This document shows positions 33,544 through 38,193 of a stretch of DNA of 64,000 nucleotides, piece after piece. Both the position numbers and the translations under genes were made by a program. The stretch covers positions 1-64,000 of the forward strand of contig NZ_KB899279.1 of the NCBI RefSeq assembly GCF_000378145.1, given 5' to 3'. Position 1 is the first letter of the stretch. Every line of letters starts with the position of its first letter. A model generated the notes under the pieces. The model did not search any database. It worked only from the letters and a program-made list of their open reading frames with translations, and was not told the origin of the DNA. This DNA comes from Saccharibacillus kuerlensis DSM 22868. Its GTDB lineage: Bacteria > Bacillota > Bacilli > Paenibacillales > Paenibacillaceae.

Positions 33544-34023
33544 GTGTCCGTATACGACTATGAAGCTCGCACCTCCAAAGGCGAAGAGGTCAAACTGTCC
33601 GATTATCAGGGAAAAGTAGTATTGATCGTCAACACGGCAAGCAAATGCGGGTTTACGCCTCAATTCCAAGGACTTCAAGAATTGTATGACAAGTACCATG
33701 AACGCGGCCTTGAAATCCTCGGATTTCCAAGCAACCAATTCAATGAACAGGATCCAGGGAGCAACGAAGAAATCGTAGAATTCTGTCAGTTGAACTACGG
33801 CGTTAAATTCCCTATGTTCGAGAAGATCGACGTTAAAGGCGGCAGTGCGCATCCTCTGTTCCAGTACCTAAGCGCAGAAGCGCCAGGGCTGATGGGTTCC
33901 AAAGCAGTCAAATGGAACTTCACAAAATTCTTGGTCGACAGAGAAGGCAAACCGGTCAAGCGATTCTCTCCGCAAACGTCGCCGGAACAGCTTACCAAGG
34001 ATATTGAGAAATTGCTGGGTTGA
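33544..34023 (+). CDS. Glutathione peroxidase-like thiol peroxidase
   Basis: 159 residues, GTG start with GAGAGGAG upstream. Thioredoxin-fold peroxidase of the Gpx/BsaA family: [13 protein letters not shown] with the peroxidatic Cys35, [16 protein letters not shown] with Gln, and [13 protein letters not shown] with the catalytic Trp and Asn. A second Cys in EFCQLNYG can act as resolving Cys, so it probably uses thioredoxin rather than glutathione. Followed by a strong terminator. Confidence 0.93.
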
Positions 34024-34215: not shown

Positions 34216-34307
34216 TATGCGGTAGAGAGGACTCGAACCTCCACGGGTATACACCCACTACCCCCTCAAGATAGCGTGTCTGCCATTCCACCACTACCGC
34301 ATATCAA
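34216..34307. repeat. 92-bp direct repeat, left copy (contains tRNA-Leu)
   Basis: Identical to 36548-36639. The identity covers the whole tRNA gene plus 2 bp on its 3' side and 7 bp on its 5' side, and stops sharply. The pair brackets a block of four unusual genes. Confidence 0.9.
34218..34300 (-). tRNA. tRNA-Leu (GAG), left copy
   Basis: 83 nt, CCA not encoded. The acceptor stem is GCGGTAG/CTACCGC, the anticodon stem CTATC/GGTAG with loop TTGAGGG gives anticodon GAG, a long variable arm is present and the T loop is TTCGAGT. It is identical in sequence to the copy at 36550-36632. It stands alone, separated from the main tRNA cluster by about 2.2 kb. Confidence 0.95.
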
Positions 34308-34621
34308 ATAAATGAGTCAACTCCTATATCATACTTCCTCAGAAGCATGCAGTCAATCATTTTTTTGCAAATTCGTTTTCAAAAAAGCTATCTTATCCAC
34401 TTCCCCTTGATATGTATATGTTATATAAAGTAACACAAAAGTATTTAAGAAGCAGGATTTTATAAAAGTATGATCAAATAACTGACATTTCATTGACCAA
34501 ACCATTATTCAGGTGTAAAAATAGATATTATAAATGATCGAATAATATAAATTATAGTATAATTAACACAAACCTAACATAATCGATTTTACAGTTTTTC
34601 ATTATAAGGAGGCGCAGTGCC
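34301..34621. promoter_or_regulatory. AT-rich leader with candidate promoter for the UreF-like gene
   Basis: 321 bp of clearly AT-rich DNA without a gene. A candidate promoter is TTGACC (34493-34498), 17 bp, TAAAAA (34516-34521). A second possible -10 (TATAAT) occurs near 34556-34561. The long AT-rich leader contrasts with the GC-richer neighbouring genes. Confidence 0.4.
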
Positions 34622-35275
34622 ATGCATAGCGGACAAAAGCTTCTCAGTTACATGACTCTTCTCGAAACGTCGTCCCCATCGCCTGTAGGGTGCATTAAAG
34701 AGGATTTGAACGGCAATCGTTTGAGCTGTATTGAAGCTTTTGAAGAAGTCATGCGCTCCTATATTCATCCTCGCTTAGCGCACATTGAAGGAAAAAGTAT
34801 CGAGGATTTGTATGCAGCATTCTCGCGCGGCGATTACGAAACCGTCTTCCAAATTGATCGCTGTCTGCGAACCCGAACTTGCCCGAATGAGATTGATGCG
34901 GAAATGCGCCGTACCGGACGCAAATTGTTGAAACTATCGAGATCTCTGTACCCATGGATAAATTTCACTCCGCTGTCCGAAGCTCTTCAAGCCGAAAAGG
35001 CATTTGGGTGCCCGGCCGTCTGCTATGCCTGGATCAACTTTCAATTGGAGATTGAACCGAGTGAGGCCGTACCGGTTTACCTGTACCATTACACAACCGC
35101 TTATGTCGAACATTGCTCCCGGCTTCTGAATCTCGACGATGTCAGCCGACGCAAACTGCTGATGCGAATGATCGATGATATATCGGAGCGCTGGGCACTC
35201 GTTCGCAATATAGGTGCTCCGTCTTTCATGTCGGGAACGGCTTATGAGGAATCTTTCATTCAAAAAACACTTTGA
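34622..35275 (+). CDS. Orphan UreF-like protein
   Basis: 217 residues; AAGGAGG precedes the ATG at 34622. The middle and C-terminus match the all-helical UreF urease accessory family: ETVFQIDRCLRTRTCPNEID, then RRTGRKLLKLSRSLY, then EKAFGCPAVCYAW and EAVPVYLYHYTTAYVEH. The N-terminus departs from it: the usual G-FSHS-G-E loop that contacts partners is not visible and the region reads SPSPVGCIKEDLNGN. No urease structural or other accessory gene is in the window. Either a divergent UreF with a new partner or a relic. The fold call is moderately confident; the function is unknown. Confidence 0.6.
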   Translation: MHSGQKLLSYMTLLETSSPSPVGCIKEDLNGNRLSCIEAFEEVMRSYIHPRLAHIEGKSIEDLYAAFSRGDYETVFQIDRCLRTRTCPNEIDAEMRRTGRKLLKLSRSLYPWINFTPLSEALQAEKAFGCPAVCYAWINFQLEIEPSEAVPVYLYHYTTAYVEHCSRLLNLDDVSRRKLLMRMIDDISERWALVRNIGAPSFMSGTAYEESFIQKTL

Positions 35276-35300
35276 AGCCCCGGCTTCAAAGTGTTTTTTT
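35262..35300 (+). terminator. Terminator overlapping the UreF-like stop codon
   Basis: A perfect palindrome, AAAACACTTTGAAGCC, CC, GGCTTCAAAGTGTTTT, that includes the TGA stop and continues into TTTTTTT. Confidence 0.9.
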
Positions 35301-35330
35301 GCCTTATCCGGCAAGCAGCTTCCTGCTTCA

Positions 35331-35421
35331 TTCTCATACTTTATTTATATGCTCTGTTCTCACACTCTATTCTTATGCTTTATCCTTATCTTCTGTTCTT
35401 ATGCTTTATTTTTATGCATCC
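35331..35421. repeat. Degenerate tandem array, 13-bp unit x 7
   Basis: Seven contiguous 13-mers of consensus TTCTTATGCTTTA: starts at 35331, 35344, 35357, 35370, 35383, 35396 and 35409, exact phase. The two units at 35370 and 35396 are identical. The array runs into the last three codons and stop of the repressor gene (35412), so the protein C-terminus is encoded by an array unit. Confidence 0.85.
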
Positions 35422-35798
35422 GTATCTTCAATCTCCAGCTTACCCAGTCTTCGGCTGCGCCGATAAGCGGCAAATTCCATATATTCACGTATAAACGTCT
35501 TCTCTTCATCGGACAGCTCATCTTCTTGGCAATTGGATTGCCCAGATTGTTCAAAAAAATAAGCACTCCCCGTTTCCTTAACCTCTTCCGGTTGCCATTC
35601 TTTTCCTGTCATCAACCAATCCAGGCTTACCGAAAAAAATGCCGCAATTTCGATCAACTTGTGCGTACTCGGTGTAGACTTGCCCCGGCGCCAATCACCC
35701 AAGTTCCCCGCACTAATCCCGAGGCGTTCTCCGAACGCCTTTTTGGTCATGCCACTGCTCTTAATCAGCTGCTCAATCCGCTCATAAATCGACTGCAA
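35412..35798 (-). CDS. XRE/cI-type transcriptional repressor
   Basis: 128 residues from TTG 35798, chosen because GGAGGAGG lies 7 nt upstream; the GTG at 35816 overlaps that site. An N-terminal helix-turn-helix (KKAFGERLGISAGNLGDWRRGKSTPS, about residues 18-44) is followed by an acidic linker and a charged C-terminal helix. No peptidase motif is seen, so it is not a LexA-type repressor. It is divergent from the next HTH gene, and a palindrome lies between them, as in phage cI/cro modules. Confidence 0.82.
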   Translation of the reverse strand: MQSIYERIEQLIKSSGMTKKAFGERLGISAGNLGDWRRGKSTPSTHKLIEIAAFFSVSLDWLMTGKEWQPEEVKETGSAYFFEQSGQSNCQEDELSDEEKTFIREYMEFAAYRRSRRLGKLEIEDTDA

Positions 35799-35855
35799 AT
35801 TCCCATCCTCCTCCACGACACATCCATTAAAATGACTTATATGCGTATGTAAATA

Positions 35856-35884
35856 TTGATAAATTACGCAATTGCGTATATAAT
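35856..35884 (+). promoter_or_regulatory. Promoter with perfect palindromic operator in the phage-like switch
   Basis: TTGATA (35856-35861), 17 bp, TATAAT (35879-35884): near-consensus sigma-A. The spacer contains the perfect 14-bp palindrome TACGCAATTGCGTA (35865-35878). A half-site ATGCGTA recurs at 35841-35847, over the likely leftward promoter. The arrangement fits one repressor controlling both directions. Confidence 0.7.
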
Positions 35885-35959
35885 CGGTTTTATGGTAAAT
35901 GATCCCTCTTGATCTCTTATCGATTATAATTCATCCTTTTGCACCTGAATAGGAGGAGT

Positions 35960-36235
35960 ATGATTTTGCATAGAAAAAAAGCCATTACCCCGTTTGGATG
36001 GGAAATTAAAAGACGTCTAGCAGAGCTGGAGATCGACCAGAAAACTTTTTGCGAAATGCATAACATTCCGCCTTCCCGTCTCTCCAACTTGATCAATGGC
36101 AGCCGCAAAGCCGCTAAATACCGCAAGCAGGTCTCACAGCTGCTCGGATTATCTTACACTTCAAGCCCCTCATCCATAGAGCTTCCTGTAAATGAACTTT
36201 TGCGTCTAACAGAAACTGCAGGAACAAGGAGGTAA
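35960..36235 (+). CDS. Small phage-type HTH protein
   Basis: 91 residues from ATG 35960; a TTG two codons on is better spaced from AGGAGG and is an alternative. The sequence ITPFGWEIKRRLAELEIDQKTFCEMHNIPPSRLSNLINGSRKAAKYRKQVSQLLGL is an XRE-like helix-turn-helix of the kind found in Firmicute prophages. It faces the repressor gene at 35412-35798 across a shared operator and could play the Cro role. Its end carries the RBS (AGGAGG) of the next gene. Confidence 0.75.
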   Translation: MILHRKKAITPFGWEIKRRLAELEIDQKTFCEMHNIPPSRLSNLINGSRKAAKYRKQVSQLLGLSYTSSPSSIELPVNELLRLTETAGTRR

Positions 36236-36242
36236 ATGTCCT

Positions 36243-36470
36243 ATGCCGCACTCCCGTTCCTTTTTAAGCCGTTTCACACCGAGCAGATCGTCTGACTTAC
36301 CCGCCTCTTGGACTGCTGCCTGCGCCCGCTGCAGCAGGATCTACCATGAAGGCAAATGGATTCATCCGGATTCCCACAAAAGCAGAAACGCCGTACTTAC
36401 ACACGATATCTGTCCCGACTGCATTCGCATCCTATATCCGAATTACGCTCATATCGCTGACATTTTATAG
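36243..36470 (+). CDS. Small protein with paired CxxC and LYP motif
   Basis: 75 residues; AAGGAGG lies 10 nt upstream, at the end of the HTH gene. The motif CARCSRIYHEGKWI and, 28 residues on, THDICPDCIRILYP resemble the CxxCKKIRDDxGxW...SHGICPxCxxxLYP element found at the C-terminus of some bacterial histidine kinases and response regulators. Here it stands as a separate small protein. It is probably a zinc-binding or structural element. Function unknown. Confidence 0.6.
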   Translation: MPHSRSFLSRFTPSRSSDLPASWTAACARCSRIYHEGKWIHPDSHKSRNAVLTHDICPDCIRILYPNYAHIADIL

Positions 36471-36510
36471 AACAGTCCATTATCTCAGAAAACATCTGTA
36501 CAAAAACAAA

Positions 36511-36540
36511 AAGCGCAGATCCCTTAAGGAATCTGCGCTT
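36511..36540 (-). terminator. Terminator of the right tRNA-Leu cluster
   Basis: AAGCGCAGAT...ATCTGCGCTT with inner pairing, followed by TTTTTG on the minus strand. It closes the Glu-Lys-Leu tRNA transcript and may also end the small-protein transcript from the other side. Confidence 0.8.
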
Positions 36541-36547
36541 TGGATCG

Positions 36548-36639
36548 TATGCGGTAGAGAGGACTCGAACCTCCACGGGTATACACCCACTACCCCCTCA
36601 AGATAGCGTGTCTGCCATTCCACCACTACCGCATATCAA
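36548..36639. repeat. 92-bp direct repeat, right copy (contains tRNA-Leu)
   Basis: Second copy of the repeat at 34216-34307, in the same orientation, 2332 bp away. The flanking terminators of the two copies differ in sequence, so the duplication covers only the tRNA gene and its immediate edges. Confidence 0.9.
36550..36632 (-). tRNA. tRNA-Leu (GAG), right copy
   Basis: 83 nt, same sequence as 34218-34300 including anticodon GAG. It is part of the tRNA-Glu, tRNA-Lys, tRNA-Leu transcript running leftward. Confidence 0.95.
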
Positions 36640-36696
36640 TATGGTTCGTTAAACGAACATTCACCATCTCTTCACTTCTGCAAAGAAATAAAATGG

Positions 36697-36769
36697 TGAG
36701 CCATGAAGGACTCGAACCTTCGACACCCTGATTAAAAGTCAGGTGCTCTACCAACTGAGCTAATGGCTC
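36697..36769 (-). tRNA. tRNA-Lys (TTT)
   Basis: 73 nt without CCA. The acceptor is GAGCCAT/ATGGCTC, anticodon loop CTTTTAA gives TTT, T arm GGTTCGAGTCC. It lies 64 bp upstream of tRNA-Leu in the same direction. Confidence 0.95.
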
Positions 36770-36775
36770 AAAACA

Positions 36776-36847
36776 TGACCCGTAGGGGATTCGAACCCCT
36801 GTTACCTCCGTGAAAGGGAGGTGTCTTAACCCCTTGACCAACGGGCC
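36776..36847 (-). tRNA. tRNA-Glu (TTC)
   Basis: 72 nt without CCA. Acceptor GGCCCGT/ACGGGTC, anticodon loop CTTTCAC gives TTC. Only 6 bp from tRNA-Lys, so both come from one transcript. Confidence 0.95.
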
Positions 36848-37001
36848 TCATTGTGTTAGCGCTTGTCGCTCTCGCTTAAGCACAAGTAAGAGTATAGCAA
36901 ACATGTATGCTAGATTGCAAGCCTTTTTTTAAAAATAATTTATTTTTTATTTTTCCACTTTTAAACCGCTTTATTTCTAAAAATTATAAGACGTATTGCT
37001 T

Positions 37002-37048
37002 AAAAATATAAGAAAATACAAAAAGAAATATAAAGGAAAATACAAAAA
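37002..37048. repeat. Two tandem 23-24 bp AT-rich repeats
   Basis: AAATATAAGAAAATACAAAAAG is followed at once by a near copy with AAGG in place of AG. It lies in the 263-bp AT-rich gap between tRNA-Glu and tRNA-Ser; nothing else is seen in that gap but the terminator at 37049. Confidence 0.6.
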
Positions 37049-37070
37049 GAGGAACCTTCTCAGGTTCCTC
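37049..37070 (-). terminator. Terminator of the Asn-Ser tRNA transcript
   Basis: GAGGAACCT, TCTC, AGGTTCCTC with TTTTTG on the minus strand, 40 bp after the tRNA-Ser 3' end. Confidence 0.85.
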
Positions 37071-37110
37071 ATCCGGTCAAGTATTAAAGTCCCTTATAAT
37101 TGAAACGATA

Positions 37111-37202
37111 TGGCGGAGAGAGAGGGATTCGAACCCTCGCACCGCTAACGCAGTCTAACCCCTTAGCAGAGGGTCCCCTTATAGCCACTTGGGTATCTCT
37201 CC
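37111..37202 (-). tRNA. tRNA-Ser (GCT)
   Basis: 92 nt including encoded CCA. Acceptor GGAGAGA/TCTCTCC, anticodon loop CTGCTAA gives GCT, long variable arm. It follows tRNA-Asn by 7 bp. Encoded CCA contrasts with Leu, Lys and Glu nearby. Confidence 0.95.
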
Positions 37203-37209
37203 ATAAAAA

Positions 37210-37285
37210 TGGCTCCCCGAACAGGACTCGAACCTGTGACAACTCGATTAACAGTCGAGTGCTCTACCAACTGAGCTATCAGGGA
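37210..37285 (-). tRNA. tRNA-Asn (GTT)
   Basis: 76 nt including encoded CCA. Anticodon stem CTCGA/TCGAG with loop CTGTTAA gives GTT. It heads the Asn-Ser transcript. Confidence 0.95.
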
Positions 37286-37686: not shown

Positions 37687-38193
37687 TCAAGCTCCGCTGC
37701 CGCTCTTCGTCTCCGACTTCAATTCTTCAAGACGAAGCCTGCCTGCACAGCGTCCGCAGCGATAACGCGAAGCATCCATACGCCGCTTGCGTTTGTATTC
37801 CATGCCGCATGTGGAGCAGGTCAGCTTGTACTTGAATGGCAGCACGCGCTTGGCCTTGTCCGGCAGTGCCTGGCAGTAGCGGCTTCCGCCCACTTTGGCC
37901 AGCAGACGCTTGAAATCGGCATCCCGGTGACGATAGCCACGTCCAGCAATATGCAGATGATAATGGCAAAGCTCGTGTTTGATGATCCCTTCTACCGCTT
38001 CCCGGCCATGCGCTTGAAGCTGGTGAGGATTGATCTCAATATCGTGTGACCGAAGTGCATAGCGCCCTCCCGTCGATCGAAGTCTGGCATTGAAAAAGGC
38101 ACGGTGCCGGAACGGCACGCCGAAATGCTCGAGCGACACTTTTTCGATCCATTGTTGCAGTTCTGCGTCGGTCATTGTCCGCTCGCTGTGCAA
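37687..38193 (-). CDS. SprT-family zinc protein
   Basis: 168 residues, TTG start with AGGGGG 7 nt upstream. The HELCH motif of SprT-like metalloproteases is at 73-77, followed by HYHLH and GRGYRHRDADFKRL. A C-terminal zinc ribbon has CSTCGMEYKRKRRMDASRYRCGRCAGRL. In Bacillus the equivalent is YdcK. Peptidase activity is assumed from SPRTN relatives but not proven for the bacterial group. Confidence 0.88.
   Translation of the reverse strand: MHSERTMTDAELQQWIEKVSLEHFGVPFRHRAFFNARLRSTGGRYALRSHDIEINPHQLQAHGREAVEGIIKHELCHYHLHIAGRGYRHRDADFKRLLAKVGGSRYCQALPDKAKRVLPFKYKLTCSTCGMEYKRKRRMDASRYRCGRCAGRLRLEELKSETKSGSGA

Follow-up and report, generated by a model that had tools for sequence, protein, structure and literature searches.

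Two kinds of described system come closest to the locus treated here. In the tRNA islands of Bradyrhizobium japonicum USDA6, as far as the consulted part of the report goes (PMC3927601), an entire transfer RNA (tRNA) gene stands at one end and a duplicated portion of it at the other, and in the chromosomal hotspots treated in the consulted part of PMC5635113, transferred genes cluster at a small number of sites where gene content changes fast. We analysed a stretch of 64,000 nucleotides (nt) from Saccharibacillus kuerlensis DSM 22868 (contig NZ_KB899279.1, positions 1 to 64,000), hereafter the window, in which two tRNA-Leu(GAG) genes enclose a block with a divergent pair of XRE-type helix-turn-helix genes (HTH1 and HTH2), a UreF-like gene and a gene for a small Cys-pair protein. 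The locus resembles the USDA6 islands, within what the consulted part of that report describes, in having a tRNA at the boundary, a direct repeat, variable cargo and several islands at one tRNA; unlike them, it has two whole tRNAs, no integrase found by the searches given below, and a block common to whole genera. It differs from the hotspots, on the same partial view of that source, in that one and the same tRNA gene forms its two borders and the regulator pair is kept. Judged from sequence comparison, we put a probability of about 0.75 on the block being an old, vertically inherited chromosomal piece between two full-length tRNA-Leu(GAG) genes rather than a mobile element of recent arrival. 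As it stands in this genome, the block has no autonomous mobility. No publication on this locus was found in a literature search that covered few subscription papers.

The features on which the comparison rests are the following.

34216..34307, minus strand: tRNA-Leu(GAG) copy A (tRNA 34217-34301) with its edges, left arm of the 92-nt repeat (ARAGORN, repeat comparison)
34622..35275, plus strand: UreF-like protein of 217 amino acids (PF01730, E 4.4e-19, above cut-off)
35412..35816, minus strand: HTH1, XRE-type repressor-like protein of 134 amino acids (PF01381, HTH_3, E 5.4e-11)
35966..36235, plus strand: HTH2, small XRE-type protein of 89 amino acids (phrog_1468, E 1.4e-20)
36243..36470, plus strand: Cys-pair protein of 75 amino acids (weak family matches only)
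36548..36639, minus strand: tRNA-Leu(GAG) copy B (tRNA 36549-36633) with its edges, right arm of the repeat (ARAGORN, repeat comparison)
36694..37285, minus strand: remaining tRNA genes of the conserved operon, Lys, Glu, Ser and Asn (ARAGORN; order the same in relatives)

ARAGORN reported both tRNAs as complete, and the repeat comparison gave a direct repeat of 92 nt with 100% identity (34216-34307 versus 36548-36639, spacing 2332). A preliminary description of this DNA had proposed identical full-length tRNA-Leu genes within a 92-bp repeat, with a repressor pair, a UreF-like gene and a Cys-pair protein between them, and all of this was borne out, the genes by family matches and open reading frames (ORFs). 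Copy B is the final gene of the tRNA operon Asn-Ser-Glu-Lys-Leu, which a SprT-like gene adjoins, and copy A is a lone tRNA gene adjoined by a glutathione peroxidase-like gene. No third near-identical copy of the repeat was found in the 4.7-Mb draft genome, where five weaker matches reach 74-77% identity, or 90% for a 29-nt piece. The terminators of the two copies had been described as different, and the terminator-like hairpins are indeed unlike each other (34209-34178 for copy A, 36541-36510 for copy B). Copy A is also preceded by a consensus match to a promoter, TTGACT-17-TATGAT at 34356-34328; promoter-like sites numbered 9 versus 7.8 in shuffled sequence, which is no enrichment, and terminator-like sites 5 versus 3.0. 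Duplication of the tRNA along with its own terminator was considered and found unsupported, the terminators being different and the spacing more than 2 kilobases (kb).

In all 15 congeners the two Leu genes, spaced 1.2 to 3.0 kb apart, enclose HTH1 and HTH2, and tblastn at 1e-3 located UreF in 12 and the Cys-pair protein in 9 of the 15 blocks. Outside the genus, genomes, loci, genera and families are cited by our own labels (G, L, g and f). Retention, which was judged on one genome per species and is to that extent a weaker argument for age, was nearly complete in genus g7, with two Leu matches in 73 of 75 genomes (E 1e-27) and HTH1 in 74 of 75; the single-match genomes are G131 (the genome of L098), which is without Lys and Leu B, and G102, where a contig end truncates the second copy. 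The combination of one Leu and no HTH1 was met in none of 91 genomes (16 of g1, 75 of g7), and since joint loss of a Leu and HTH1 was seen in no g1 or g7 genome, selection probably keeps the resident genes in place. Such retention of the two tRNAs and the genes they enclose is largely what the preliminary description had named as grounds for giving up its own reading. HTH1 was present in 95 of the 216 genomes of the family sample. Among the matches listed, it occurred in 16/16 genomes of g1, 25/25 of g13, 1/1 of g15 and 23/24 of g18, and two or three Leu matches in 16/16, 24/25, 1/1 and 24/24, respectively, the genomes giving no match (101 for HTH1, 34 for Leu) standing outside these counts, so that some members of these genera with neither feature may be among them. 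In the g13 exception, G234, ARAGORN placed a Leu at the position of copy A and found no Glu, Lys or Leu in the operon.

The named relatives recovered by HTH1 were Saccharibacillus and Paenibacillus. Their 79 named loci were chosen by HTH1 and come partly from the same genomes as the genus counts; HTH1 lies between two Leu genes in 57 of the 79 within the fetched stretch and in 18 more by coordinates. The remainder are L105, with its Leu copies on separate contigs, L098, whose genome has one full copy, and two loci taken up below. In 67 of the loci read, the Leu genes were 0.9 to 12.9 kb apart; G216, with 59 kb, and P. silagei, with 76 kb, exceed this range, and the cargo between the repeats varies among loci. 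Between the two Leu genes of P. monticola (L179:8956-13631) lie genes that look by eye like Fe-S assembly genes (SufB/SufD-like), and loss of such a block would be costly.

Sites with one Leu and no HTH1 were seen only in other genera and families, strains of one species not being available for the comparison. The preliminary description had advised looking for relatives with a single tRNA-Leu and no block, and none was seen among the 15 congeners. Ten outgroup loci have the SprT-side operon with one Leu (L137, L139, L142, L144, L146, L148-L151 and L156; little or no contig sequence follows Leu in L139 and L150), and no HTH1 was detected at 1e-15 in their genomes. One Leu is likewise present in P. 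oryzae (L181) and in two g17 genomes (L202, L203). In families f7, f9 and f10 there is one Leu in L185, L189 and L190 (about 1 kb seen downstream in L190), one Leu with an adjoining integrase piece in L186, and one Leu with a fragment in L183. Among the matches listed, genes upstream of the operon are common to ingroup and outgroup, and those downstream of the outgroup Leu have no consistent ingroup counterpart.

Several observations weigh against the reading of an old, inherited piece. A SprT tree built from the 73 loci whose SprT match exceeded 110 residues (duplicates L066, L067 and L069 excluded) does speak for that reading, one branch (support 92/96; 94% of 200 bootstrap trees) separating 62 ingroup from 11 single-Leu rows; yet it is an unrooted tree of one short protein, includes the one-Leu loci L098 and L182 among its ingroup rows, and samples neither g6 nor the g17 genomes that have two Leu genes. 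The block has a guanine-cytosine (GC) content of 43.3% versus 52.1% for the window, a point tempered by the values of its genes (46-51%) and of the adjacent tRNA stretch (41.6%). HTH1 and HTH2 lie away from Leu in L122 (P. oryzae) and L135 (P. methanolicus, genome G242), as well as in G138, G233, G220 and, in family f8, G042 and G049; G105 and G241 have a Leu pair without HTH1. Two full-length Leu genes were also found in 5/5 g6 genomes examined, four of them visibly at this operon, with spacings of 15.6 kb in G147, 3.9 kb in G189, 5.6 kb in G156, 5.2 kb in G181 and 11.4 kb in G020 (near a contig end). Finally, G235 and G268 of g17 have Glu-Lys-Leu twice, with Leu copies 2.3 and 0.95 kb apart.

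The g6 and g17 pairs (L192-L194, L198-L201) resemble the window in having two full-length Leu(GAG) genes, at the same operon where visible, and no match to the P. silagei integrase described below. They are unlike it in the genes between the copies, which are others, in the absence of HTH1, and, in g17, in the doubling of Glu and Lys as well. No HTH1 was present in the stretch around the Leu pairs of the five g6 genomes, and four of them (G020, G147, G181, G189) share a common set of other genes there. At least two Leu matches occurred in 13 g6 and 7 g17 genomes, of which 5 and 2, respectively, were inspected. The last tRNA has therefore been doubled at this operon either on several occasions or at a very early time, which makes plain duplication no worse an origin for the second Leu than integration. 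Because such pairs stand at the operon without the block, a pair as such does not imply integration.

We consider it about an even chance that the second Leu arose by duplication, through doubling of the operon tail (Glu-Lys-Leu or Leu) or through a Leu that moved in from another tRNA cluster, the genes between the copies having come or stayed by chance and selection. This account concerns the origin only and fits the vertically inherited state of the block at present. It is favoured by the doubled Glu-Lys-Leu in 2/2 two-match g17 genomes inspected (L200, L201), by the Leu pair around other genes in 5/5 g6 genomes and by additional Leu(GAG) genes elsewhere in G018, G019 and G025, in large tRNA clusters; on the other side, ARAGORN found no Glu or Lys remnant beside copy A, and duplication alone leaves the association of HTH1/HTH2 with the Leu pair in five genera unexplained. 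A simple tandem duplication had been dismissed in the preliminary description; that holds for copying of the tRNA with its terminator, whereas duplication of the operon tail is a real option in view of g6 and g17. In the sequence of events that we propose, the last tRNA of the operon would have been doubled in the ancestry of Saccharibacillus and of four further genera in the family sample, with the divergent HTH1/HTH2 pair between the copies, either through operon-tail duplication or through capture of a Leu-bearing block at a tRNA used by integrases. Plain duplication is ranked above capture because of the doubled Glu-Lys-Leu of g17 and the Leu pairs of g6.

Origin by integration appears doubtful. 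It would make the block the remnant of a prophage or satellite at the tRNA, with its tyrosine integrase lost, HTH1/HTH2 as its repressor pair and the second Leu derived from the attachment site. The suggestion that this tRNA is an attachment site was a good one, as integrases adjoin it in P. silagei, G050, G054 and a viral contig. In P. silagei (G288), 66 kb separate copy B from a 59-nt 3′ Leu fragment, and a tyrosine integrase gene (L178:9568-10773; PF00589, E 3.5e-25) lies 165 nt from the fragment. G050 and G054, from another family, carry related integrases about 130 nt from an intact Leu, with 3′ Leu fragments of 54 nt at 6.3 kb in G050 and 53 nt at 11.4 kb in G054. On viral contig L195 (IMGVR_UViG_3300002854_000239), a 49%-identical integrase stands beside the Leu of an Asn-Ser-Glu-Lys-Leu(GAG) operon. 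All four insertions target the same tRNA at the same operon as in the window (in G054, only Glu-Leu lie within the stretch). Further points in favour are the phage counterparts of the regulators. In the early region of phage BalMu-1 (NC_030945), HTH1 matches a divergent repressor gene, with 37.5% identity over residues 6-83, while the match of HTH2 is to a small repressor, with 43.8% over residues 3-66, and a 55% HTH1 relative occurs on viral contig L196 (IMGVR_UViG_2928301709_000007).

These insertions nevertheless differ from the window: each has its integrase next to the tRNA, and what remains at the far end of the three cellular ones is a 3′ fragment of 53-59 nt, running from near the anticodon to the 3′ end of the tRNA, and not a whole gene. 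That a full-length duplication is unusual for integration had been remarked in the preliminary description. A 3′ fragment as one arm of the repeat is absent from the window, where both copies are whole. The integrase missing from the earlier account stayed missing: no integrase family matched the four block proteins, no window ORF of at least 100 amino acids matched the P. silagei integrase, and a genome-wide search at E 1e-40, which did not extend to serine recombinases, detected no related tyrosine integrase. Among 5281 ORFs of the compared loci, those of the congeners included, only the P. silagei integrase itself matched, so no ORF of a congener locus did. The integrase family stands beside Leu in 2 of 22 places listed (G050, G054) and is not confined to this tRNA. 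The likeness to BalMu-1 is distant, and the block has no transposase or other phage gene that we found; BalMu-1 itself, whose annotation includes a transposase, would not need a tRNA site. L196 has no tRNA in the stretch fetched, and the XRE pair is also found off the tRNA. The XRE pair matches phage families, and such genes are common in chromosomes too. HTH1 had matches in 57 plasmid records, all below 60% identity and none with 80% coverage. The idea of a mobile or decayed element thus keeps part of its ground in the targeting of this tRNA in relatives, the single-Leu outgroups, the BalMu-1 counterparts and the varying cargo, with a borrowed integrase still conceivable, and loses it for a recent or satellite island.

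The insertions at this tRNA are of some interest in themselves. The P. silagei island (L175-L178; G288:C15, about 30.8-97 kb) encodes a pPIWI-RE protein, SNF2- and UvrD-type helicases, a PD-(D/E)XK nuclease domain and a dynamin-family protein; from the eight proteins scanned, it may be a defence island. The Leu fragment of P. silagei was considered as a trace of repeat recombination and dropped; it adjoins the integrase and is counted as an integrase insertion only. The elements in G050 (L183:6777-12977) and G054 (L184:6377-17841) measure about 6 and 11 kb, and L195 bears an HTH gene and a SprT-like gene around its tRNA operon (by eye).

Copies A and B tend to remain alike. They were identical in 46 of 71 genomes versus 13.7 expected under independent draws, a figure that ignores relatedness and so lends the inherited piece less support than it seems to (the 71 are the 74 loci with exactly two Leu genes minus the duplicates L066, L067 and L069). 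The acceptor-stem type was the same in 69/71, and 15/16 pairs in the window's genus were identical. Gene conversion probably keeps both tRNAs alike. G216 (L157-L160) has three Leu genes and two HTH2-HTH1 modules whose pieces are 89-96% alike, in the order copy B, 59 kb with HTH2-HTH1 at its end, the second Leu, 2.7 kb that closes with HTH2 and a shortened HTH1, and lastly the third Leu. L082 holds a 539-nt HTH1-Leu tandem of 93% identity with a decayed middle Leu. Because tandem HTH1-Leu units occur in two species, the Leu repeats appear to recombine, and unequal crossing-over would be the simplest account of both tandems. Recombination between the repeats would thereby double the HTH1-Leu unit occasionally, as the remnants in these two species suggest, and may help cargo to come and go. 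The 59-kb stretch of G216 contains about 40 kb of polyketide-synthase-like genes (by eye, unscanned) and a transporter set, and transposase- and reverse-transcriptase-like pieces were seen by eye near its copy B.

A broader proposal, that the twin Leu genes form an integrase-free exchange locus whose cassette is exchanged and extended in tandem through homologous recombination or an integrase acting in trans, and which is held over genus-level time by a phage-related XRE switch, seems unlikely to us. Least probable is a recent, still mobile mini-island or satellite with UreF as its cargo: both Leu copies, in direct orientation, hold the full stretch of the integrase-made fragments, excision in trans is possible in principle, and related integrases occur elsewhere in the genomes of 4/15 congeners (G001, G003, G006, G007), but this was rejected on finding the block fixed in 15/15 congeners, with two Leu matches and HTH1 also retained in the 73/75 and 74/75 genomes of g7 given above; UreF is under purifying selection, and the window's genome has no related integrase at E 1e-40.

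Further features concern the control region of the regulator pair and the genes that flank the locus.

35817..35965, no strand assigned: divergent control region of HTH1/HTH2 (sequence inspection, promoter consensus)
33544..34023, plus strand: glutathione peroxidase-like gene flanking copy A (PF00255, E 4e-42)
37687..38193, minus strand: SprT-like gene flanking the tRNA operon (PF10263, E 1.4e-15)

In many ingroup loci, too, the glutathione peroxidase-like gene is found on the side of copy A, and the SprT-like gene adjoins the tRNA operon in both ingroup and outgroup. In the control region, the near-palindrome TTACGCAATTGCGTAT (35864-35879) falls almost wholly within the spacer of a promoter-like site, TTGATA-17-TATAAT (35856-35884, plus strand), which is oriented so as to drive HTH2. 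The near-palindrome is a putative operator, and by acting there HTH1 would probably repress both HTH2 and the gene of the Cys-pair protein. CGTATATAAT was present in 10/10 Saccharibacillus control regions, and the palindrome TTACGCAATTGCGTAT was not in all ten. HTH2 also matched the BcepMu gp16 family weakly (E 0.0077, below that family's cut-off).

The UreF-like gene is retained in all ten Saccharibacillus genomes read. PF01730 spans most of its product, which is the sole UreF match in the genome and had no match among solved structures at 0.001. The domain is that of the urease accessory protein UreF, yet the window's genome gave no match to urease alpha (PF00449; other urease genes were not searched). 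Across the genus, 7/16 genomes had one partial PF00449 match each, of at most 27.7 bits and in 4 cases above the 23-bit cut-off, which we take for other amidohydrolases. Urease-like genes (named by eye) accompany a UreF-like gene beside copy A in the blocks of P. tundrae, P. pabuli and G105, and for this reason the UreF of the window may be a remnant of a urease-bearing block, retained for another use. The Cys-pair protein matched phrog_1581 (E 1.9e-5) and NF040826 (E 9e-5, far below cut-off), and aligns to the C-terminal part of a 133-residue protein in the P. pabuli block. The median ratio of nonsynonymous to synonymous substitution rates (dN/dS) in ten Saccharibacillus genomes, the window's included, was 0.10 for UreF, 0.12 for HTH1, 0.16 for HTH2 and 0.29 for the Cys-pair gene, values drawn from 30, 43, 35 and 24 of 45 pairs, respectively, with synonymous sites near saturation; the low ratios of UreF, HTH1 and HTH2 favour the reading of an old, inherited block. 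Families for replication, packaging and capsid were absent from the four block proteins at the thresholds used, save for weak helix-turn-helix domain matches of the XRE proteins. A defence function of the cargo was set aside, PADLOC matching HTH1 only, and to models of several systems that bear such a domain.

The locus is of modest novelty, and its best part is the contrast, at one tRNA, of integrase insertions with whole-gene pairs that have no integrase. An old, fixed locus can bear a textbook island signature, with its tRNA direct repeats and phage-like repressors, and this one tRNA offers a natural comparison between a 3′ fragment with an integrase and whole-gene pairs without one. The tandem HTH1-Leu units would be a record of recombination between the tRNA repeats, and the UreF-like gene, conserved yet an orphan, is a remaining puzzle that can be put to the test.

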